DNA of 64,000 bases from an uncultured Bryobacteraceae bacterium (GTDB lineage: Bacteria; Acidobacteriota; Terriglobia; Bryobacterales; Bryobacteraceae): the NCBI GenBank assembly GCA_937920635.1, contig CAKZUE010000020.1, positions 1 to 64,000 of the forward strand, read 5' to 3'. Both the position numbers and the translations under genes were made by a program. Position 1 is the stretch's first letter, and the number at the start of each line of letters is the position of its first letter. This document shows positions 4,225 through 64,000 of this stretch, in pieces. The notes beneath the pieces were generated by a model that had not been told where the DNA came from, did no database searches, and saw only the letters and a list, made by a program, of their open reading frames with translations.

Positions 4225-4563
4225 GGGAGTTCCTCCTCCAGACGAGGCTTTCAATATCAGGTTTTCAGCCCGCTGTAAAACAGAAGTTGCGGCTGAATGA
4301 ATATCGCCTGACGGGGCGAGGCCGAAGGGGAAAGTGCGACAGGGGAGGCAAGGGGCCGACAAGGGCCTCTCATCTTGCAGTATGCCACAAAAAGCGCTGA
4401 ACAGGGGGCGGAGGAGCCCCCGTCCGTATCCAGTAGCGGCGAATGTTGAAGCTTGACGTCAATCCTGGCCAGCGCGCTCCGGCCGCCCCCCCGCCATTCC
4501 CCTGCCCGCCGCAAGGCCGGCCCGCTTCAGACGCGCAGGCCGGCAAACCGCTAGAATCGGAAC
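4225..4563. other. intergenic region between divergent HAD phosphatase and tpiA
   Basis: About 340 bp without a convincing gene. It must carry the promoters for both divergent genes. A strong hairpin (GGGGGC at 4404-4409, loop GGAGGA, GCCCCC at 4416-4421) is visible but has no T-tract after it, so it is not a clear terminator. No confident promoter hexamers were identified. Confidence 0.5.
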
Positions 4564-5316
<753 letters not shown>

Positions 5317-53250: not shown

Positions 53251-56200
53251 TCATGGGACGCGCACGATCGGAACGGAAGTGAAGCTGAGCGTCGGCTGGA
53301 ACCGCAACCCCAGCCCCATGATGCCCGCCGGGCGGTCCGCGCGGAACTCGAGGAAGCCGCGCCTTCCCGCCGCCGCCGGGAACAGATCAGTGACGGAAAA
53401 CGCCGTGTGGCCGTTGGGAGGCAGATTGATGGCGCCGCGGACGAACTCGACGCCGCCCTCATCATACAGAATGGCTGTCACGCTGGCCGGCTCATCGGGC
53501 GCGAGATTGACCAGCGCGATGCCGGTGGAAAATCCGCTGAGATTGTCCATTGGCTGGAGGTAACTCTGAAGCGCGGCGCTCTCCAGGGGCGCCGTACCCT
53601 CGGAGTCCACGCCGCTGCCGTGCTTCTGGCGGAAGATGGCGAACCCAGCCACCGGCGACGCCGAACGCACCTCCGCCCAGCCGACCAGAATGGCGGAGCC
53701 GGCGGCTTCGGACTCGACGATCAGCGTCCCGCGCGGCGGGATGGTCCGCTGCACGCTGGAAGCGGCTGTCGTGGCGGTGCCGGTTCCTTCGATCACGGTC
53801 AGCGGCAGGGTCAGCGTGCCGCCGTTGTCGGCGAAGAAATTGATCCGCACCGCGGCAGGCTCCGCTCCGGGGTTCAGCACGGTGATTGCGGTCTTCCAGC
53901 TCCCGCCGGAAGCGACCTGGGAGATGACGCCCACCCTGGGCGGCTGCGATCCCGCGCCGACCACCAGGGTGAACGCCGCCTGGGTGGCCGCCTGCGCCGC
54001 ATCGGTCACCTTCAGGGTGAACTGGAACGTTCCTGGCGTGGCGGGCGTGCCTGAAAGAATGCCAGTGGGCGAGAGCGTCAGTCCGGGCGGAACCGCCCCC
54101 GCCAGAACGGTCCACGCATAAGGCGCCTGGCCGCCGGTAAGGCCGAACACCAGCGAATAGGCCGAGCCCGCGCTCGCCTCCGGCAGCGTGCCGCCCGTGG
54201 TTATCGTCAGCGGCGATGATACGGTCCAGGAGAATTCCCCGGTCAACCTGCCTCCGGAGGCATCCGACAACTCGACGGTGAAGCGGAACACGCCGCCCAG
54301 GCGCGGCGTGCCGGAGAGCACGCCTGTCGGAGTCATCGAGACCCCCTCAGGCAGCAAGCCGGAGGCGACCCGCCACTGATACGGCGCACTGCCGCCTCTG
54401 CCCTCGAACGTGAACGTGTAGAACACGTTGAAGTTCCCATTGGGCAGCGGCGAAGCGCTGGCGATGGCGAGAACGTCCTGCACGGCGAGCGTGTAAGCCC
54501 TCTCCGCCACGGCGCCTGCGGAGTCCGTCACCCGGACCGTGAACGTGAAGACGCCGATCAGGGCGGGCGTGCCGGAGAGCACCCCTTGCTGGTTCAGCGT
54601 CATTGCCGGCGGCAACGCGCCCGCAGTCAGCGTCCATGTATAAGGCGGCACGCCTCCGGAGACAGCCAGCGTCTGCGAGTAGGCGGCTCCGAGGGTGGCA
54701 GCCGGAAGGACGTCTGGCGAGATGGCCAGCCCCGCCGCCACCAGCAGCGTGAAGCTGTCCGTGCGGCTCGTACCAGCGCTGTCGGTGACGCGCACGGTGA
54801 ACAGATACGCGCCGGCTGCCAGCGGCGTCCCGCTCAGAACGCCGGTCTGCGCGGCCAGTTGCATGCCGGAGGGCAGGGCGCCTCCGGTTACGGCCCAGGA
54901 ATAAGGCGCCGTGCCTCCTCCGGCCAGGAACGTGAACGAGTAAGGCTGAGCCGTGTACGCCGGCGGAAGAGTGCGCGGGCTCAGCAGCGTGAGGTCATTG
55001 CTGACGAGGATCGAAAACTGCCCAACCCCGCTGGCGCCCGTGGAATCGGTCACCGTGATCTGGAAAGTGTAATTGCCCGCGGCCGAAGGAGTGCCGCTGA
55101 GAACACCGCCGGACGCCAGACTCAATCCCGGCGGCAAGGCGCCGCCCGTCACCGCCCACCGGTAGGGCGGCGTCCCGCCGGCGGCTGTCAATGTCTGCGA
55201 GTAGGGCTGGTTCGGCACCGCCGACGGCAATTGCGTATTGGAGGTGATCACCAAGCCGGCGCTCACGATCAGCCCAAACGCTTTCGCCGCTGTGGCGCCC
55301 GCCTGGTCGGTGACCTGAACCTGGAAGCTGTATGTGCCCGAGGCGGACGGAATGCCGGAGACCAGCCCTTGCGGAGACAATGTCAACCCAGGCGGCAGCG
55401 CGCCACCCGTGACGGTCCACTGATACGGCGCCGAGCCTCCGCTGGCGGCCAGGCTCTGCGCGTATTGCACGCCGACCGAGGCCGGCGGCAGATCCGAGGC
55501 GGTGTCGATGGATAATGTCTGCCCGACGTTGATGGTGAAAGCGCGGAACGTGGAAGCGCCGCTCGAATCGGTCACCCGGAGGATGAAAGCAGAGGCGCCG
55601 CTGCCGGAAGGAGTGCCGCTGATGACACCGGTGGAAGAGAGATTCAAGCCCGCCGGAAGCGTCCCAGCAGCCAGGATCCAGATGTAGTTGCCCGCACCGC
55701 CGGTGGCCGTCAGAGAAGCATTGTAGGGCTGGCCCGCGTTGGCTTGCGGCAGTGATGAAGTCGTGATCGCCACCGCAGGCAGAACCGTCAGATTGTAAGC
55801 CGCCAGGTCGCTGCCGCCCGCCGTGTCGTTGGCCTGCACGAAGAAGGAATAGGTGCCCGGAACCGCCGGCGTGCCTGAAAACAGGCCGGTGCTGGAAATG
55901 GAAGTGCCCGCCGGAGCGGACACCAGGCTCCAGGAGTATGGCGGGCTTCCGCCGGAAGCGGCAAACTGATGCGAGTAGGGCGCGCCAGCGATGGCCTGGG
56001 GCAGGGGCTGCTGACTGGGATTGCCAATGGCCACGCCGATTTTCGTCAACCAGGTGAACAGTTGCGTGGCCGTGTTGCCTGCGGCGTCCCTGGCCTGCGC
56101 CGTGAAGTTGACGTTGCTGGCGGAGGCGGAGGTTCCGGAAATCACGCCAGCCGGATCCAGCAAGATGCCTGCGGGCAGCGTGCCAGAGATCAGCGACCAC

Positions 56201-57198
56201 TGGTACGGTCCCAGACCACCCGCCGCCTCGAGCGGAATGCTGACGGCGGCGCCCACGGGGGCCTTGGGCAAAGCGGAGGGCGTCAGGATCGTAGGCCCGG
56301 CGCTCACGATCAATTCCATCGGCAGCGTAGCCGAAACTCCGCCCGCAGCGGTCACCTTCACTGTGAAGGAGAATGCCCCTGCCGCAGCGGGGACGCCGCT
56401 CAGCAGTCCGCTGGCGGCGAGAGCGATGCCAGAAGGCAGGCTGCCGCTCTCCACTGTCCAACTGAACGGCGCGGCGCCGCCCGCCGCCTGGAGAGCCACT
56501 CCGTACGGGACGCCCACGACGCCCGCAGGAAGGCTGGAAGTGGCGACAGCCAGCCCCTGGCCGATCCGCAACGCGTAGCGGCGCAGCGAGTATGCACCGG
56601 TGGAGTCGGTCACCCGAACCGCGATGGAGCCCTGAAAAGCCTGCGACGGCGTGCCGCTCAAAAGGCCGGCGGGTGATAGAGAAAGACCCGCCGGCAGAGC
56701 AAATCCTGCTTCCAGCGTGAAAGTGTAGGGAGGCGCTCCGCCCGCAGCCGACAGGCTCGCCGAATAGGGCGCTGCGGTGGCGCCGCCGGGCAACGTCAGG
56801 GGACCGCTGACGCCGGGAAAGCCGCTGCGGGTGACCGTCAGCGTGCCGCCCGTTCCCGCCCCCTGCTGGCTCAGGGTCTCGTAGACGCCGGGTTGGGCGA
56901 GGGCGCCGGCGGGGAAGAAGAACCGCTGAAACGTCACGCCCCCGCTGGGCGGCTGCTGTTCGATGACAACCTGATCCAGTCCCGCCGGAGATCCCGGAAA
57001 GAGTCCCGCTGCCGTGCAATGCGGGGCGCAGCGCATCTGAAACGCCCGCAACACCGCGGGTGCAGTAACCGCTTCCGGCACAGTGGCCGTCAGCCGCACC
57101 GCGCGTCCATCGCCGCCCAGCCCCGAAAGCTCGATGGAGAGCTGGGCATCCGCAGGCAGCGCGAGAACAGAGGCGGCAAGACAAAGAACCAGGCGCAT
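53251..57198 (-). CDS. giant secreted protein with about 11 He_PIG (putative Ig) repeats
   Basis: 1315 residues: a signal peptide (MRLVLCLAASVLALPADAQ), an N-terminal region of about 130 residues, then about 11 tandem units of ~88 residues. Each unit follows the He_PIG pattern: LPxAxxGxPY, then GGxxPYxWxxxxGxLPxGLxLxxxGxxxGTPxxxGxYxFxVxVTDxxG. A distinct beta-rich C-terminal domain of about 220 residues follows (VGVISQVASGGSWKTAITVLNP ... GFLEFRADRPAGIMGLGLRF). No cell-wall or T9SS sorting signal is obvious. Probably an extended adhesin or matrix protein. GGAG precedes ATG 57198. It follows the second He_PIG gene after 130 bp. Confidence 0.88.
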   Translation of the reverse strand: MRLVLCLAASVLALPADAQLSIELSGLGGDGRAVRLTATVPEAVTAPAVLRAFQMRCAPHCTAAGLFPGSPAGLDQVVIEQQPPSGGVTFQRFFFPAGALAQPGVYETLSQQGAGTGGTLTVTRSGFPGVSGPLTLPGGATAAPYSASLSAAGGAPPYTFTLEAGFALPAGLSLSPAGLLSGTPSQAFQGSIAVRVTDSTGAYSLRRYALRIGQGLAVATSSLPAGVVGVPYGVALQAAGGAAPFSWTVESGSLPSGIALAASGLLSGVPAAAGAFSFTVKVTAAGGVSATLPMELIVSAGPTILTPSALPKAPVGAAVSIPLEAAGGLGPYQWSLISGTLPAGILLDPAGVISGTSASASNVNFTAQARDAAGNTATQLFTWLTKIGVAIGNPSQQPLPQAIAGAPYSHQFAASGGSPPYSWSLVSAPAGTSISSTGLFSGTPAVPGTYSFFVQANDTAGGSDLAAYNLTVLPAVAITTSSLPQANAGQPYNASLTATGGAGNYIWILAAGTLPAGLNLSSTGVISGTPSGSGASAFILRVTDSSGASTFRAFTINVGQTLSIDTASDLPPASVGVQYAQSLAASGGSAPYQWTVTGGALPPGLTLSPQGLVSGIPSASGTYSFQVQVTDQAGATAAKAFGLIVSAGLVITSNTQLPSAVPNQPYSQTLTAAGGTPPYRWAVTGGALPPGLSLASGGVLSGTPSAAGNYTFQITVTDSTGASGVGQFSILVSNDLTLLSPRTLPPAYTAQPYSFTFLAGGGTAPYSWAVTGGALPSGMQLAAQTGVLSGTPLAAGAYLFTVRVTDSAGTSRTDSFTLLVAAGLAISPDVLPAATLGAAYSQTLAVSGGVPPYTWTLTAGALPPAMTLNQQGVLSGTPALIGVFTFTVRVTDSAGAVAERAYTLAVQDVLAIASASPLPNGNFNVFYTFTFEGRGGSAPYQWRVASGLLPEGVSMTPTGVLSGTPRLGGVFRFTVELSDASGGRLTGEFSWTVSSPLTITTGGTLPEASAGSAYSLVFGLTGGQAPYAWTVLAGAVPPGLTLSPTGILSGTPATPGTFQFTLKVTDAAQAATQAAFTLVVGAGSQPPRVGVISQVASGGSWKTAITVLNPGAEPAAVRINFFADNGGTLTLPLTVIEGTGTATTAASSVQRTIPPRGTLIVESEAAGSAILVGWAEVRSASPVAGFAIFRQKHGSGVDSEGTAPLESAALQSYLQPMDNLSGFSTGIALVNLAPDEPASVTAILYDEGGVEFVRGAINLPPNGHTAFSVTDLFPAAAGRRGFLEFRADRPAGIMGLGLRFQPTLSFTSVPIVRVP

Positions 57199-57328
57199 GG
57201 CTTCACTCCACAGCGGCCATGCGGCCTTCACACACCGGCGGCCACATGGCTCCGCCCCAGTATATTCTTCCGCTCTGTCAGGCGGGTGAATCCTGTGTTA
57301 CAGCCGTCCTGCCGGTGGGCGGAATTCT

Positions 57329-60220
57329 CTAAAAGTTGGCCGATGCCGTCCCAGAGCCGGCGCTGTTGGCGAGCGTCACCTGCACCGAAGCCAGCGCGCC
57401 GGCGGTTCCTTGGAGCGTGAAGGGGACCACCAGCAGGAACTGTCCGCCGTGCTGGCGCGACTCGGCGCTGGCGAACCACGTCTGGAACACGGTAGCCACA
57501 GGCACGTTGATTTCCGCCGTGCCGAGTGAAGCGCCCGGCGCCGGCGTGAACCGGAACGTTGCGCCGGTGATCTGGCGGGTGTTGGAATAGCCCGTGATCT
57601 GGATCTCGAATCCGGCCGGGTTTCTGACAATGACCAGCTTCGTGATCTGCGGACCCGAGGCGGGGATGCGCACGGTCTTGACGGCGAACGGATCGGGAGC
57701 GAGCACGGCGTTGCCGAGCCGCAGCGTCACGCGGATCGTAATGACACCCGCCGTAGTGCCCGTTTGCAGGGCGAACAGCGAGGCGGAAGCGGGAACCGCG
57801 GCGGTCTGGCCGGCGGGGATCGTGAAATTCACGGTGTTGCCGCCACTGGCGAAGCGCACCGCGGGATCGGGCGGCAAGGCGCCCTCGGGGGTGAACTCCA
57901 GTTGCGCCGTGCCGGTGAGTTCAACCGGGAAGCCCTGTCCCAGTTGCAGTCCGAAGGACGGCTGGCTGGCAGGCGGCAGGGTCTCCTGAATCTGCGTGAC
58001 CGTCAGAGGCGGCAGAGGTGGCAGGGCGATGACGAGGGTGAACGCGCGGCTGGCGGTAAGCGGCGGCTGGTTGCCGTCAGTCACCGTTACCTGGATGGGG
58101 AACGAACCGTGCTGCAGGGGCGTGCCCGTAATCGCGCCGGTCTGGGCATTGAGCGCGAGCCCCTGCGGCAGCGAGCCGGAAGCCAGGCTCCACAGGAATG
58201 GCCCGCGTCCGGCGGCTTCCAGCGTGGCGTTGTAGCTGTCGCCGACTCTTCCCTCAGGCAGAGCGGTGGTGACGATGGATGGCCGGAGGAACACGGTGAG
58301 CGTGAGCACACGGCTGGCGGTGAGCCCTTCGCCGTCGAGCACCTGGGCGGTGAATGAGAACTGGCCGGATTCGCCCGGCGTGCCGGAGAGCGTGCCATCG
58401 GCGGCCAGAGCCACGCCCGAAGGAAGGCTGCCGCCGGCAAGCGAGAACGCATAGGGCGGGAAGCCGCCTGTGGCGGCGAGGAGCGTCTGGTACGGCTGCC
58501 CCTCGGCGCCTTCAGGCAGCGACGTGGTCGTGATCACCAGCGGATCGGCAAAGCGCACGGTGTAAGTGCGCGCCGCCGTTGTCGAGGCCGCATCCTGCAC
58601 CTGAACTGTAAAGGTGAACGAGCCCGCGGCCGACGGCGCGCCCGACAGCGCGCCCGTCCCGGAATCCAGGACGAGACCGGGGGGGAAGCTGCCCGAAAGA
58701 ACGATCCATGAGTATGGAGTGACGCCTCCCGCCGCCTGGAGTTGCGCGGAGTACGCCACACCGGGCGATCCCGCCGGCAGCGACAGCGTGGTGATGGAGA
58801 GGGGCGCGGCAAAGCGCACGGTGTAGGTGCGCGCCGCCGTTGTCGAGGCCGCGTCCTGCACCTGAACTGTAAAGGTGAACGAGCCCGCAGCCGACGGCGC
58901 GCCCGACAGCGCTCCCGTCCCGGAATCCAGGACGAGGCCGGGGGGGAAGTTGCCCGACAGAACGCTCCATGAGTACGGAGTGACGCCTCCCGCAGCCTGG
59001 AGTTGCGCGGAGTACGCCACACCGGGCGCTCCCGCCGGCAGCGACAGCGTCGTGATGGACAGAGGCGAGGGAAGCACGTTCAATGTCAGCCAGCCGAACG
59101 CGTTGCCTTGCGCCGAGTCGGTGACGGTAACCTGGAAGGTGAACTGCCCCGGCTGGGTGGGAACGCCCTGCAAGGCGCCGGTGGACAGTAGCGTGATGCC
59201 TGGAGGCAGAGTCCCGGCAGAGTGGGTGAAGGTGTACGGCGCCGTGCCGCCTGAAGCCGTCACCGTGCCGGCGTAGGCGACTCCCACCGTCCCATCCGCG
59301 AGCGGAACCTGGTTCAGCGTGAGCGGCGGGGGCTGCACCGCGATCCGCAGTTGCGACTCGGAAAATGCAGTATTCGAGTCGGTGATCCGCGCGACGAAGT
59401 TGAAGACGCCCAGCGCCGTGGGGGTTCCCGTGATCGCGCCGGTCGCCGGATTCAGGCTCAGCCCTGGCGGCAGTGCGCCGCTGATGATCGAGAAAGAGAA
59501 GGGCGCGGTGCCGCCCCGGGGCGACAGCGTGCCGGTGTAGCTCAGTCCCCGGTAGCCCGTGGGCAGCGTTGCGCTGATGGTGGGCGTGGGGTTGACCGTG
59601 ATCGTGTAAGTCCGCTGGGTGGACTGCTCCAGTATGTTCAAATAGCCGGCGTATGCGACGAAGGTATACGTCGCCGGAGTCTGGAGCGGCGGAAACACGC
59701 CAGTGAGCTGAAGGGTGGGTCCCACTTCAGGAGGGAATATGAAATTCACACCGTTGGGCAAATTGCTCGCGCCGACATCCCAGGAGACTGGGACGTTGGC
59801 GACGATGGATCGCGTCATCGGCACGCCGGCTGTGGCAGCCGGCAGAGGGGTCGCGGTCAACAGCTGCAGCCGGGTGTCGGTGAGGAACTGGTAGGACTCG
59901 CCAACAGTGACGACCGGGGCGGCTGCAGGCGTGTATGTCCGTGACACGAAGAAATAGTAATAGCCGGAGCTGGTGATCGTTCCCGACAGCAGGCCAGTCA
60001 CCGGGTTGAGGGTGAGTCCGGGAGGCGGCTGCCCGCCGAGAACAAAGGGACCCGGCGTCCCAGTCGGCGGATTCAGGACGGAAAACTGGATGCTCACGGC
60101 ATCGCCTACGAAGCCCTGGAAGGTCTGCGACGGCGGCTGCATGGAAGGAGGCGGCGCCTGCGCGGCCAGCGGTCCCGCGCAAAGCAGCATCACGAGAAAG
60201 GCAATATAGAGGCCGCGCAT
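57329..60220 (-). CDS. secreted protein with about eight He_PIG (putative Ig) repeats
   Basis: 963 residues with a signal peptide (MRGLYIAFLVMLLCAGPLAAQ), about eight He_PIG-type units and a C-terminal domain of about 200 residues (LPPASQPSFGLQLGQGFPVELTG...). Two adjacent units, ITTLSLPAGAPGVAYSAQL and ITTLSLPAGSPGVAYSAQL, are nearly identical, reflecting a recent 261-bp DNA duplication. The ATG shares one base with the stop of the upstream propeller-like gene (TAATG), so it is cotranslated. A surface or matrix role is likely. Confidence 0.88.
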   Translation of the reverse strand: MRGLYIAFLVMLLCAGPLAAQAPPPSMQPPSQTFQGFVGDAVSIQFSVLNPPTGTPGPFVLGGQPPPGLTLNPVTGLLSGTITSSGYYYFFVSRTYTPAAAPVVTVGESYQFLTDTRLQLLTATPLPAATAGVPMTRSIVANVPVSWDVGASNLPNGVNFIFPPEVGPTLQLTGVFPPLQTPATYTFVAYAGYLNILEQSTQRTYTITVNPTPTISATLPTGYRGLSYTGTLSPRGGTAPFSFSIISGALPPGLSLNPATGAITGTPTALGVFNFVARITDSNTAFSESQLRIAVQPPPLTLNQVPLADGTVGVAYAGTVTASGGTAPYTFTHSAGTLPPGITLLSTGALQGVPTQPGQFTFQVTVTDSAQGNAFGWLTLNVLPSPLSITTLSLPAGAPGVAYSAQLQAAGGVTPYSWSVLSGNFPPGLVLDSGTGALSGAPSAAGSFTFTVQVQDAASTTAARTYTVRFAAPLSITTLSLPAGSPGVAYSAQLQAAGGVTPYSWIVLSGSFPPGLVLDSGTGALSGAPSAAGSFTFTVQVQDAASTTAARTYTVRFADPLVITTTSLPEGAEGQPYQTLLAATGGFPPYAFSLAGGSLPSGVALAADGTLSGTPGESGQFSFTAQVLDGEGLTASRVLTLTVFLRPSIVTTALPEGRVGDSYNATLEAAGRGPFLWSLASGSLPQGLALNAQTGAITGTPLQHGSFPIQVTVTDGNQPPLTASRAFTLVIALPPLPPLTVTQIQETLPPASQPSFGLQLGQGFPVELTGTAQLEFTPEGALPPDPAVRFASGGNTVNFTIPAGQTAAVPASASLFALQTGTTAGVITIRVTLRLGNAVLAPDPFAVKTVRIPASGPQITKLVIVRNPAGFEIQITGYSNTRQITGATFRFTPAPGASLGTAEINVPVATVFQTWFASAESRQHGGQFLLVVPFTLQGTAGALASVQVTLANSAGSGTASANF
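58548..59069 (-). repeat. tandem 261-bp coding duplication
   Basis: Two consecutive 261-bp units (87 codons, one He_PIG domain each) beginning at 58548 and 58809 are almost identical at the base level. Only scattered differences occur, for example one in GCACGGTGTA[A/G]GTGCG. The duplication keeps the reading frame. Confidence 0.85.
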
Positions 60221-61874: not shown

Positions 61875-63026
61875 ATGATACACGAGAACGGGCTGCAAAA
61901 TGAATCCAAAAATGGCTCGCCTTCCCCGCTGCCGCAGACTGGCGGTCCCGTGCATCTCGACGCGGAGAGCGCCGGCGGCATGAGCGGCGCAGCCTCCCTC
62001 TGCCGCCGGGCTGCCATCGCCGGCGCCGGCGCGCTGGGCAACGAGCTGTTCCGCCAGCTTGGGCTGCTGGGCGCGGGCGAGGTGCTGCTGATCGATCCCG
62101 ACCTCGTCGAGGCGTCGAATCTGGCCAAATGCGCTTTTTTTCGCTCGCCGGGCGCGGCGGGCAGACCGAAAGTGGAAGTGCTGGCCGAACAGGGGGCGGC
62201 CTTGTTCCCGGAGACCCGCTGGATCCCCATCGCGCGGGAGATCGCGGACGTGGGATGGGGACGGCTGCGTGGGTGCGATTTGCTGTTCGGAGGGGTGGAC
62301 CGCGACTCGGCGCGGCTGGAAATGGCGCGGATCTCGACGCGGCTCGGCCTGCCCGTCTGCGATGGAGGCATGATCACCTCCGGCGCGGCGGCGGGCCGCG
62401 TGTCGTGGTTTCCCGGGCGCGAGGGGGCCTGCTTCTGCTGCCGGCTGACGGCGCGCAGGCGGCGCGAATACCTCGAAACGTGGTCCAGCGCCGCGCACCC
62501 GTGCCATGTCCCGCAGGAGCGCGGCGGCTGGAGCGCGACGCCGGCTGTGGCCGCCGTCACGGCGGCGTTGCAGGTGCATTTCGCGTTCGAGTGGCTGCGC
62601 CGGGGCGAGCGCGAAGCGCGCAGCATCGAGTTCCGCCTGGATGGGGCGTTGCGGCTGGAGGAGATACGGATCCCGCTCGACGAATCGTGCCCCTTCCACA
62701 CGGCGCCGTTGGCGCTGGTGCCGGTCGAAGGACCGTTTTCGGCGCTCATGCGGCACGGGCAGGAAATCGCCTGGGAGTGGCCGCTCTGCCTGCGGGCGCG
62801 GTGCCTGGATTGCGGCCTGGAATTCGAGCCGCGCCTGCGGGTGACGCGCTTCCGCCGCGAGGGCGCATGCCCGCGTTGCGGCGGGCGGCGCCTTTTGGAA
62901 CTCGACAACCGGAACCGCATCGCGTCCGGCGATCCGCTGAGCCGAAGGACGCCGGAGGAGGTGGGCTTGCCCGCCGAACACCTGTATAGTATTCGTAAGG
63001 GATTCCTGGTGGAGGAGATGGAATGA
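61875..63026 (+). CDS. E1-like ThiF-family activating enzyme with C-terminal zinc ribbon
   Basis: 383 residues. The E1/ThiF Rossmann core has IAGAGALGNELFRQLGLLGAG (GxGxxG at 50-55) and LLIDPDLVEASNLAK (Asp74/76, Asn82). It also has the Arg in CAFFRS, Lys99 in GRPKVEVL, and FGGVDRDSARLEM. A Cys-rich loop CFCCR (186-189) and Cys210 in AAHPCHVPQ may bind zinc or carry the thioester. The C-terminal part has a zinc ribbon CLDCG...CPRCGG. Such enzymes adenylate the C-terminus of a ubiquitin-like protein. The stop overlaps the start of the RING-like membrane protein (ATGA). ATG 61875 is used; ATG 61980 is an alternative. Confidence 0.9.
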   Translation: MIHENGLQNESKNGSPSPLPQTGGPVHLDAESAGGMSGAASLCRRAAIAGAGALGNELFRQLGLLGAGEVLLIDPDLVEASNLAKCAFFRSPGAAGRPKVEVLAEQGAALFPETRWIPIAREIADVGWGRLRGCDLLFGGVDRDSARLEMARISTRLGLPVCDGGMITSGAAAGRVSWFPGREGACFCCRLTARRRREYLETWSSAAHPCHVPQERGGWSATPAVAAVTAALQVHFAFEWLRRGEREARSIEFRLDGALRLEEIRIPLDESCPFHTAPLALVPVEGPFSALMRHGQEIAWEWPLCLRARCLDCGLEFEPRLRVTRFRREGACPRCGGRRLLELDNRNRIASGDPLSRRTPEEVGLPAEHLYSIRKGFLVEEME

Positions 63027-63721
63027 ACGCTCGCAGCATCGCGGTCCTGGCGGCCACGGCTTTTTTGCTCACCCTGGTGCAGTTCTTCGCCGCCATGGGC
63101 GGGCCGGGCATCGCTGTGGCCGTCAGCCTGCTGCTGGCGGTGCTGTCGCTTTTCCTGCTGAAGATGTTCGAGGCGGAGCTGCCGAATCCCTGGCTGGCGG
63201 TGGCGCCTCCATTCCTGGCGGGATTGCTGGGCGTGCTGCTGTGGAGCCTGGCGCAACCCCGGATCGACCGTCTTTACTGGATGGCGCCGGCTCTGGCGGG
63301 GGCGCTGGCGGCGGCCATCGTCTGGTGGCAGAACCGCGACGCCCGGCGCTGCGGGCTGTGCAATTGCCGCCTGGCCGGGAAAATCTCGTTCGTCTGTCCG
63401 CGCTGCAATCTGGAAGTTTGCGAGACAAAATGCTGGGATTTCGAGAAAATCCGCTGCCGCCTCTGCGTGCAGAATTCCGTTCCCCTGTTTCCGCCGAACC
63501 GCCAGTGGTGGGACCGTCATGTCGGCCCCCCTGCTCTCCAGGGCCGCTGCCAGGTGTGCGGAGTAGGGCCGGAAGAAGCCGACTTGCGGAGCTGTCCGAA
63601 GTGCGGCCGGCCGCAGTGCGTCGAATGCTGGGACGATTCCAACGGCTTGTGCGCCCGCTGCGGCTGGCGCGTCCAGGCCCTGCCGGAATCCCTGAAATCA
63701 TTTCTGACCGATCCGTCTTAG
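63023..63721 (+). CDS. membrane protein with two tandem RING-like zinc modules
   Basis: 232 residues. The first ~103 contain four hydrophobic helices (IAVLAATAFLLTLVQFFAAM, IAVAVSLLLAVLSLFLL, WLAVAPPFLAGLLGVLLWSL, YWMAPALAGALAAAIVWW). The cytosolic-side remainder holds two eight-Cys modules. Module 1: C110, C113, C125, C128, C133, C137, C145, C148. Module 2: C176, C179, C191, C194, C199, C202, C210, C213. Both follow CX2C-X11-CX2C-X4-C-X2/3-CW-X6-CX2C, a binuclear treble-clef/RING-like layout, and share the CWD signature. Between an E1 and a ubiquitin-like gene, it is a candidate membrane-anchored E3 or adaptor. Confidence 0.88.
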   Translation: MNARSIAVLAATAFLLTLVQFFAAMGGPGIAVAVSLLLAVLSLFLLKMFEAELPNPWLAVAPPFLAGLLGVLLWSLAQPRIDRLYWMAPALAGALAAAIVWWQNRDARRCGLCNCRLAGKISFVCPRCNLEVCETKCWDFEKIRCRLCVQNSVPLFPPNRQWWDRHVGPPALQGRCQVCGVGPEEADLRSCPKCGRPQCVECWDDSNGLCARCGWRVQALPESLKSFLTDPS

Positions 63722-63734
63722 GGGGTGCAGATTT

Positions 63735-63995
63735 ATGGCGAAATATCAGATGTATTTCGACACCGTCCAGGGAGAAACCAAATATAACGTCGACATCGAC
63801 GAGGCGGAGGTCCTGGACGACGTCCTGCACGAAATCCTGTACGACCTGAGAGAGCGCGGCGACGTGCTCCAGGGCGAAGGGGAGCCGCAGGTCGTGTGGA
63901 ACGGCGTGGCGCTCGATTTCCGCCGTCCGCTGCCGGAGCAGGGCGTGCGTCCCAACGACGTGCTGCGCGTCTCCACCGTCGCCACCAACGGCTGA
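63735..63995 (+). CDS. ubiquitin-like beta-grasp protein
   Basis: 86 residues. The strand-helix-strand order fits a beta-grasp fold: MYFDTVQGETKYNVDI, the helix VLDDVLHEILYDLRERGD, then PQVVWNGVALDF, RRPLPEQGV and NDVLRVSTVA. The WNGVALDFRRPLPEQGVRPN block mirrors the ubiquitin/YukD pattern of a hydrophobic strand, turn, Leu-x-x-x-Gly and asp-x-leu end. The protein ends in a single Gly (ATNG), so no further processing would be needed to expose it. AGGGGGTG lies before the ATG. It is third in the operon after the E1-like and RING-like genes. Confidence 0.87.
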   Translation: MAKYQMYFDTVQGETKYNVDIDEAEVLDDVLHEILYDLRERGDVLQGEGEPQVVWNGVALDFRRPLPEQGVRPNDVLRVSTVATNG

Positions 63996-64000
63996 TGCCC
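63995..64000 (+). CDS. start of a further operon gene, truncated by the window end
   Basis: The Ubl stop TGA (63993-63995) shares its last base with an ATG (63995-63997) followed by CCC: a TGATG coupling like others in this window. Only two codons are visible, so the product cannot be identified. An E2-like or JAB-type protein would be expected if the system is a full conjugation operon. Confidence 0.35.

Follow-up and report, generated by a model that had tools for sequence, protein, structure and literature searches.

Results

Gene content of the operon

The stretch of DNA analyzed here (the window) comprises positions 1 to 64,000 of contig C20 (CAKZUE010000020.1) from an uncultured Bryobacteraceae bacterium, and at its 3′ end lie the genes of a predicted ubiquitin-like protein (Ubl) conjugation system. 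An E1-like activating enzyme, a protein with four transmembrane (TM) helices and two zinc modules (the 4-TM protein, TMRING in gene orders), and an 86-residue Ubl are encoded in one tight operon at 61875-63995 on the + strand (Table 1). The open reading frames and junctions described in a first-pass annotation of this DNA were all recovered on re-reading of the sequence: the E1 and 4-TM genes overlap in ATGA, 13 bp separate the end of the 4-TM gene from the Ubl start, and the Ubl stop runs into the next start via TGATG. The window edge at 64000 severs the operon; the same contig, which continues to 145 kb in a genome of 4.15 Mb, carries the remaining genes, and the operon could be read past the end of the window. 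It was found that an E2 with an HPN motif and a catalytic Cys starts right after the Ubl. The annotation had proposed a Ubl conjugation operon, and this E2 next to the Ubl, the ubiquitin fold of the Ubl, and the conservation of the set as a unit lend that proposal strong support.

Table 1. Features of the Ubl cassette (window coordinates; C20 is the contig).
Feature	Position	Strand	Evidence
E1-like ThiF-family activating enzyme, 383 aa	61875..63026	+	Pfam ThiF 3e-19
E1 Cys210, candidate thioester cysteine	62502..62504	+	Sole invariant E1-family Cys outside CxxC/CPxH metal pairs
E1 C-terminal zinc ribbon C310/C313/C332/C335	62802..62879	+	Pfam Zn_ribbon_8 4e-4 (sub-threshold); four Cys invariant
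Protein with 4 TM helices and a pair of RING/FYVE-class zinc modules of eight Cys each; candidate E3, or receptor for the E2 at the membrane	63023..63721	+	
Zinc module 1, residues 106-153	63338..63481	+	Structurally similar to FYVE domains and to the RIM zinc finger
Zinc module 2, residues 172-219	63536..63679	+	Profile match to E3 RINGs; Pfam Prok-RING_2 0.002, sub-threshold
Ubl, YukD-like beta-grasp, 86 aa, ends ATNG	63735..63995	+	AlphaFold pLDDT 93.1
Codon of C-terminal Gly86, presumed conjugation terminus	63990..63992	+	Invariant in 27 sequences
E2 (UBC), first codons	63995..64000, gene on to C20:64507	+	170 aa; HPN(x8)C; Pfam UQ_con 1e-4

The cassette and a type VI secretion system

The genes that follow the E2 in the same direction encode a protein with kinase and FGE-sulfatase domains, two DUF4384 proteins, a caspase (C14) and TPR protein, FHATM (a TM protein that matches FHA weakly), and a VWA protein. 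After the VWA gene come TssB (VipA, 5e-6) and TssC (4e-27), and then two Hcp-like proteins, which were assigned by reading and position with no model match. The run also contains a baseplate protein in the TssF position (NCBIfam, 1.7e-5), TssG (1e-12), VgrG (2e-20), TssK (NCBIfam, 9e-13), and a ClpB/ClpV ATPase. Therefore, with the TssB/TssC sheath, the TssG/TssK baseplate, VgrG, and ClpV identified by Pfam and NCBIfam, the genes downstream of the VWA gene are a type VI secretion system (T6SS) operon. The first-pass annotation had considered a free-standing role in defence or a generic modification of the envelope; instead, the cassette heads a T6SS operon lying outside the window.

No TssM (IcmF_C) was found in 8 genomes and no TssL (DotU) in 7, several of the genomes being on one contig, with E. 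coli as the positive control in both searches. As judged from these models, the T6SS is non-canonical, without detectable TssL or TssM.

Conservation, linkage, and co-divergence

The closest named homologues belong to Bryobacteraceae and Acidobacteriaceae. The order E1-TMRING-Ubl-E2-kinase-DUF4384-DUF4384-caspase-FHATM-VWA-TssB-TssC is kept in all five congeners (5/5). Among 297 genomes of the phylum, seven were positive in a search with a Ubl profile, all seven with the same four cassette genes, and a scan of 84,980 species genomes returned 21 loci, all acidobacterial by content. After removal of duplicates there were 28 distinct loci (our own included), and the order E1-TMRING-Ubl-E2 was constant wherever the contig was complete, so that the trio first noticed in the window is indeed a conserved unit. 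Because the whole unit is kept in 28 loci, the cassette is not a chance assembly.

The linkage to the T6SS is similarly strict: TssB lies near FHATM-VWA in 24/24 loci whose contig reaches far enough. In Bryobacteraceae the genes from the cassette through the T6SS are all co-directional, whereas the cassette and FHATM-VWA-TssBC run divergently in Acidobacteriaceae; this opposite orientation shows that the linkage outlived a rearrangement. A close TssC (at least 70% identity) was present in 6 of the 297 phylum genomes, genomes that are related to one another, and all six are Ubl-positive.

Distances among the cassette proteins followed those of TssC, with Mantel r values of 0.86 for the Ubl, 0.84 for the E2, and 0.87 for the 4-TM protein (0.72-0.87 with E1 included), and 0/2000 permutations were as high. 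The mean identity of the Ubl (76%) was close to that of TssC (74%), whereas those of E1, E2, and the 4-TM protein were 38, 40, and 41%. That the Ubl changes as slowly as the sheath while the enzymes drift suggests that it touches a conserved structural partner.

Weak FHATM matches in three further genomes (G192, G343, and G351) were set aside, as neither an E1 nor an E2 is present at these FHA/kinase or VWA loci. A plasmid search gave no match to the cassette, and a mobile plasmid origin is thus unsupported. The record DYJN01000050.1, titled Arcobacter sp., has the content of a congener contig (G003:C38); it is acidobacterial, and the title looks wrong.

The Ubl

The annotation had described an 86-residue beta-grasp protein ending in Gly, and AlphaFold confidently predicts a ubiquitin/SUMO/YukD fold for it. 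The best Foldseek matches were the Ubl (YukD-like) domain of ESX-5 EccD5 (3.9e-4) and ubiquitin (4.4e-4). Against SUMO and ubiquitin, VIA-align gave Z values up to 10.9, with an rmsd of 2.0 over 75 residues for SUMO, and the ubiquitin of Caldiarchaeum (6fnn_C) was also among the structural matches (Z 10.2). Residues 1..86 of the model align to residues 0..76 of ubiquitin in 6nyo_E, which puts Gly86 at the position of ubiquitin Gly76. The relation is visible solely through the predicted fold: a Ubl profile had no significant match among PDB sequences (best 0.08), and Pfam YukD did not match the window Ubl. The identity was 66-95% in 25 homologues and 52% in one from a distant member (genome G262), in which the Ubl is fused to another protein; the C terminus is NG in every member except this fused one.

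The E1 and E2 enzymes

The E1 profile matched UBA7, MoeB, UBA3, ThiF, and BubCD in the PDB at 5e-22 to 6e-18, and an alignment of 20 homologues showed conservation of GxGALG, D76, N82, K99, and D142. The start codon is uncertain, being either that at 61875 or the internal Met36 at 61980; conserved homology starts near residues 36-45. The zinc ribbon attributed to the E1 by the annotation is present at its C terminus, and a second metal site (CxxC...CPxH) is also conserved in the homologues. From its pattern of conservation, Cys210 is probably the thioester cysteine.

In the E2, Asn87 (of HPN), Cys96, and His129 are invariant in an alignment of 26 sequences, and the UQ_con match reaches 1.4e-8 in one homologue. 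The E2 profile matched 156 PDB sequences at E values up to 1, and the best 60 of these 156 were almost all named E2s. As a separate observation, the E2s and the VWA proteins have a C-terminal motif in common, RR-x-R-L-S in most E2s and T-R-L-S in many of the VWA proteins encoded at those loci; it is possibly a phosphorylation or docking site.

The JAB peptidase expected by the annotation is missing from this operon and present in the distant member. There (L025:5337-6194 and 4316-5212 region), the Ubl and E2 share a single reading frame and are joined through EGGG, beside a PP2C phosphatase and a JAMM peptidase that has a C-terminal hydrophobic segment. This fusion and the adjoining JAMM peptidase are as expected if the Ubl is cut after Gly. 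JAMM/Prok-JAB was also found in a sister locus (L073, below).

The 4-TM protein

AlphaFold (pLDDT 90.4) places the TM helices at residues 3-25, 28-48, 56-77, and 83-105. All 16 Cys of the protein (16/16) were at least 90% conserved in an alignment of 25 homologues, and both modules have the spacing C-x2-C-x11/12-C-x2-C-x4-C-x2/3-C-x7-C-x2-C, in agreement with the earlier description of two eight-Cys modules of near-identical spacing on a four-TM protein. With VIA-align, module 1 matched FYVE domains and the RIM finger at Z 4.6-5.9 (rmsd mostly 2.1-2.4 over 46-47 residues); taking FYVE, RIM, and PHD fingers together, the Z values are modest (4.3-5.9), and module 2 lay outside these structural matches. 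The module 2 profile ranked E3 RINGs first (Arkadia, RLIM, and AMFR), weakly, at E 0.006-0.011. Prok-RING_1 and Prok-RING_2 were the commonest Pfam matches in the family, each matching 11/25 homologues (best 2e-4 and 5e-5), with the window protein below the cut-off.

The two modules look like cross-brace binuclear zinc domains and are here called RING/FYVE-class modules, and the 4-TM protein is a putative E3. The 'tandem-RING E3' of the first-pass annotation holds in part: both modules have the look of cross-brace domains, but module 1 has a FYVE-like fold and module 2 matches E3 RINGs and Prok-RING only weakly.

Neighboring and variable genes

On the 5′ side of the cassette, the minus strand encodes two long proteins of 1326 and 963 aa (53251-60220) that consist of repeated, putative Ig-like domains. 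The two DUF4384 genes and the caspase/TPR gene between the kinase and the FHA protein (L002:10330-14178) occur in the Bryobacteraceae version only, and in the Edaphobacter clade their place after the E2 is taken by a calcineurin-like phosphoesterase. TssG (L008:8302-9207) has an N-terminal PASTA domain (1.3e-6), which is unusual in a T6SS baseplate protein.

Sister systems and comparison with known systems

An E2 scan of 396 genomes of the phylum revealed sister systems. One of these (L073:11132-18857, genome G239) has no T6SS and consists of a CpaF-like ATPase (named by reading; the scanned frame had no Pfam match), an E1, a YukD Ubl, an E2 with zinc ribbons, a JAB, a VWA protein with a Prok-RING_1 match, and an FHA protein. 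Loci L100-L102 contain a Ubl, an E1, a JAB, an FHA-type TM protein, and an E2. In genome G199 (L099:7265-9728 and L107), E1, YukD-like Ubl, E2, and JAB genes precede a complete, canonical T6SS by about 1.5 kb, of which T6SS TssK, TssL, and TssM were identified by Pfam and TssA, TssB, and TssC by reading; this is a second, separate Ubl/T6SS neighborhood with a different T6SS, in one sampled genome. What looks like another class occurs in genome G045 (L096:5701-10704), with an E1, a TIR-like protein, a Ubl-E2 fusion, and a JAB in a row and genes for WD40 and MoxR-like ATPase proteins near.

Prokaryotic E1/E2/RING/YukD-like-Ubl systems were reportedly predicted by Burroughs, Iyer, and Aravind in 2011, in Mol BioSyst, which is said to be the source of the Pfam Prok-RING families. 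As in those systems, an E1, an E2, a YukD-like Ubl, and putative binuclear treble-clef RINGs occur together here, whereas in our cassette the RING-like modules are doubled on a separate 4-TM protein, the operon is without JAMM, and the cassette heads a T6SS. The sister loci without a T6SS, such as L073, represent this known kind of predicted prokaryotic ubiquitin module, which was recruited to a T6SS in one large family.

An E1/E2/small-RING/ubiquitin cascade has been described for Caldiarchaeum subterraneum (PMC5654768). It is likewise reported to have a separate E1, E2, and RING-type protein plus a Ubl, and it is not known to be membrane-anchored by tandem modules; the Ubl of our cassette is YukD-like and not ubiquitin-proper. 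We know of no tie between the Caldiarchaeum cascade and a secretion system.

The Bil and Bub systems share with the cassette a ThiF-type E1 (BubCD match 5.7e-18), an E2, and a Ubl, whereas our operon is without JAB, has a membrane tandem zinc protein, and stands in a T6SS context. PADLOC and NCBIfam models matched neither the Ubl nor the E2, and the E1 matched BilD at 0.008 only. CBASS Cap2, an E1-E2 fusion, is similar in its E1 domain (1e-12 to 5e-12 in the PDB), whereas here the E1 and E2 are separate, the Ubl is dedicated, and there is no cyclase. YukD and EccD of ESX/type VII secretion similarly tie a Ubl fold to a secretion machine, and to our knowledge ESX has no E1 or E2. PpkA and Fha form the threonine-phosphorylation pathway of T6SSs, and kinase, FHA, and VWA proteins are likewise inside our T6SS cluster, to which a Ubl pathway is added and which is without TssL/TssM.

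In the literature searched, which left bioRxiv and the 2011 comparative-genomics paper outside, no report of a link between a T6SS and E1, E2, and Ubl was found, and a prior mention is possible. The parts are known in prediction; what appears to be new, not being found in that literature, is the coupling to a T6SS without TssL/TssM and the 4-TM tandem-module protein.

Discussion

We consider it probable that a complete, membrane-localized Ubl conjugation cassette at the head of this T6SS operon acts on T6SS components as a switch for assembly or firing. In the proposed mechanism, the E1 would adenylate Gly86 of the Ubl and then carry the Ubl as a thioester, probably on Cys210, from which it would pass to Cys96 of the E2. 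Via its two zinc modules, the 4-TM protein would keep the charged E2 at the inner membrane, on the cytoplasmic side, and steer the Ubl onto lysine residues in membrane or baseplate parts of the adjoining T6SS. Such tagging would be a switch parallel to the Ser/Thr kinase and FHA proteins of the operon. Because this T6SS is without the canonical TssL/TssM anchor, membrane tagging may help to dock or license it.

Of this interpretation, the analysis shows the gene content, the folds, the invariant catalytic residues, the strict linkage, and the co-divergence; adenylation, the thioester relay, the ligase role of the 4-TM protein, the T6SS substrates, and the effect on regulation are inferred. Several observations weigh against it. 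The Ubl ends in NG and not GG, and the alignment of this E1 family shows no conservation of the Arg found after the Asn in MoeB-type E1s. No JAB/JAMM was found among the scanned operon genes, the sole Prok-JAB of the genome being unlinked, on contig C3. A Foldseek search with the model of the 4-TM protein gave no significant match, with the TM helices probably dominating. In the distant member G262 (L025), the cassette, FHATM, and VWA genes are present and TssC was not detected, in an assembly that is fragmented and 90% complete; in view of this genome, the partner of the cassette may be the FHA/VWA membrane module instead of the T6SS itself. The co-divergence could partly reflect shared vertical descent.

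The strongest competing explanation is that the Ubl acts as YukD does and is never conjugated; it would be a non-covalent structural or assembly part of the secretion platform, like the YukD/EccD Ubl in ESX, and the E1 and E2 relics or adaptors. The EccD5 domain as best Foldseek match and a conservation equal to that of TssC, as expected of a structural part, fit this explanation, and YukD has been reported not to be conjugated to proteins (PMC1779556). However, relics would lose their catalytic residues, and even divergent members keep those of both enzymes, and the C-terminal Gly of the Ubl, without exception; the JAMM peptidase and the EGGG junction of the Ubl-E2 fusion in G262 also imply cleavage after Gly. 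We therefore regard a purely structural Ubl as unlikely. It seems still less likely that the cassette tags effectors or recipient-cell proteins and that the tagged cargo is delivered by the T6SS: the operon does include VgrG and further tip genes, but the candidate E3 is an integral membrane protein with zinc modules predicted to be cytosolic, and the neighbors kept across loci are FHATM, VWA, and sheath genes and not particular effectors. Anti-phage defence of the Bil/Bub/CBASS kind, placed at a T6SS locus by chance, is the least probable explanation and a very improbable one. Defence systems are reported to be among the known bacterial E1/E2/Ubl systems (PMC10097602), and a caspase-like peptidase and a kinase are nearby. 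However, PADLOC models match none of the Ubl, E2, and TM protein, the search for a plasmid copy was negative, and the T6SS linkage spans two families and several genera, whereas defence-island neighborhoods would be expected to be patchy. A free-standing defence island was rejected on the PADLOC result and the linkage data.

A further alternative concerns one part only and is otherwise compatible with a conjugation cassette that acts on the T6SS: instead of E3 RINGs, the zinc modules may be FYVE/PHD-like fingers that bind lipids or proteins, so that the 4-TM protein merely anchors the cascade at the membrane. We consider this a real possibility, though a somewhat doubtful one. The fold of module 1 and the C-x2-C...C-x4-C-x2-C spacing, which is in general closer to FYVE than to C3HC4, favor it, whereas the E3 RINGs at the top of the module 2 profile, the frequency of Prok-RING matches in the family, and the Prok-RING_1 match in the VWA protein of a sister system point to RINGs.

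Most of what is known about the physiology of bacterial ubiquitin-like systems comes from anti-phage defence. A cassette that is conserved and strictly linked to a T6SS would give a Ubl system a concrete machine and clear candidate targets, and it would join the puzzle posed by YukD and ESX, of why a ubiquitin fold is found in a secretion system, to real conjugation enzymes. More tentatively, and with the doubt tipping slightly against it, Ubl modification at the inner membrane by a 4-TM tandem RING/FYVE-like ligase may assemble, anchor, or license a T6SS that lost TssL/TssM, which would be the first ubiquitin-type control of a contractile injection system inside the producing cell. The cassette would offer one way to anchor or switch a T6SS in the absence of TssL/TssM, and the cultured members Granulicella mallensis and Edaphobacter modestus make this idea testable.

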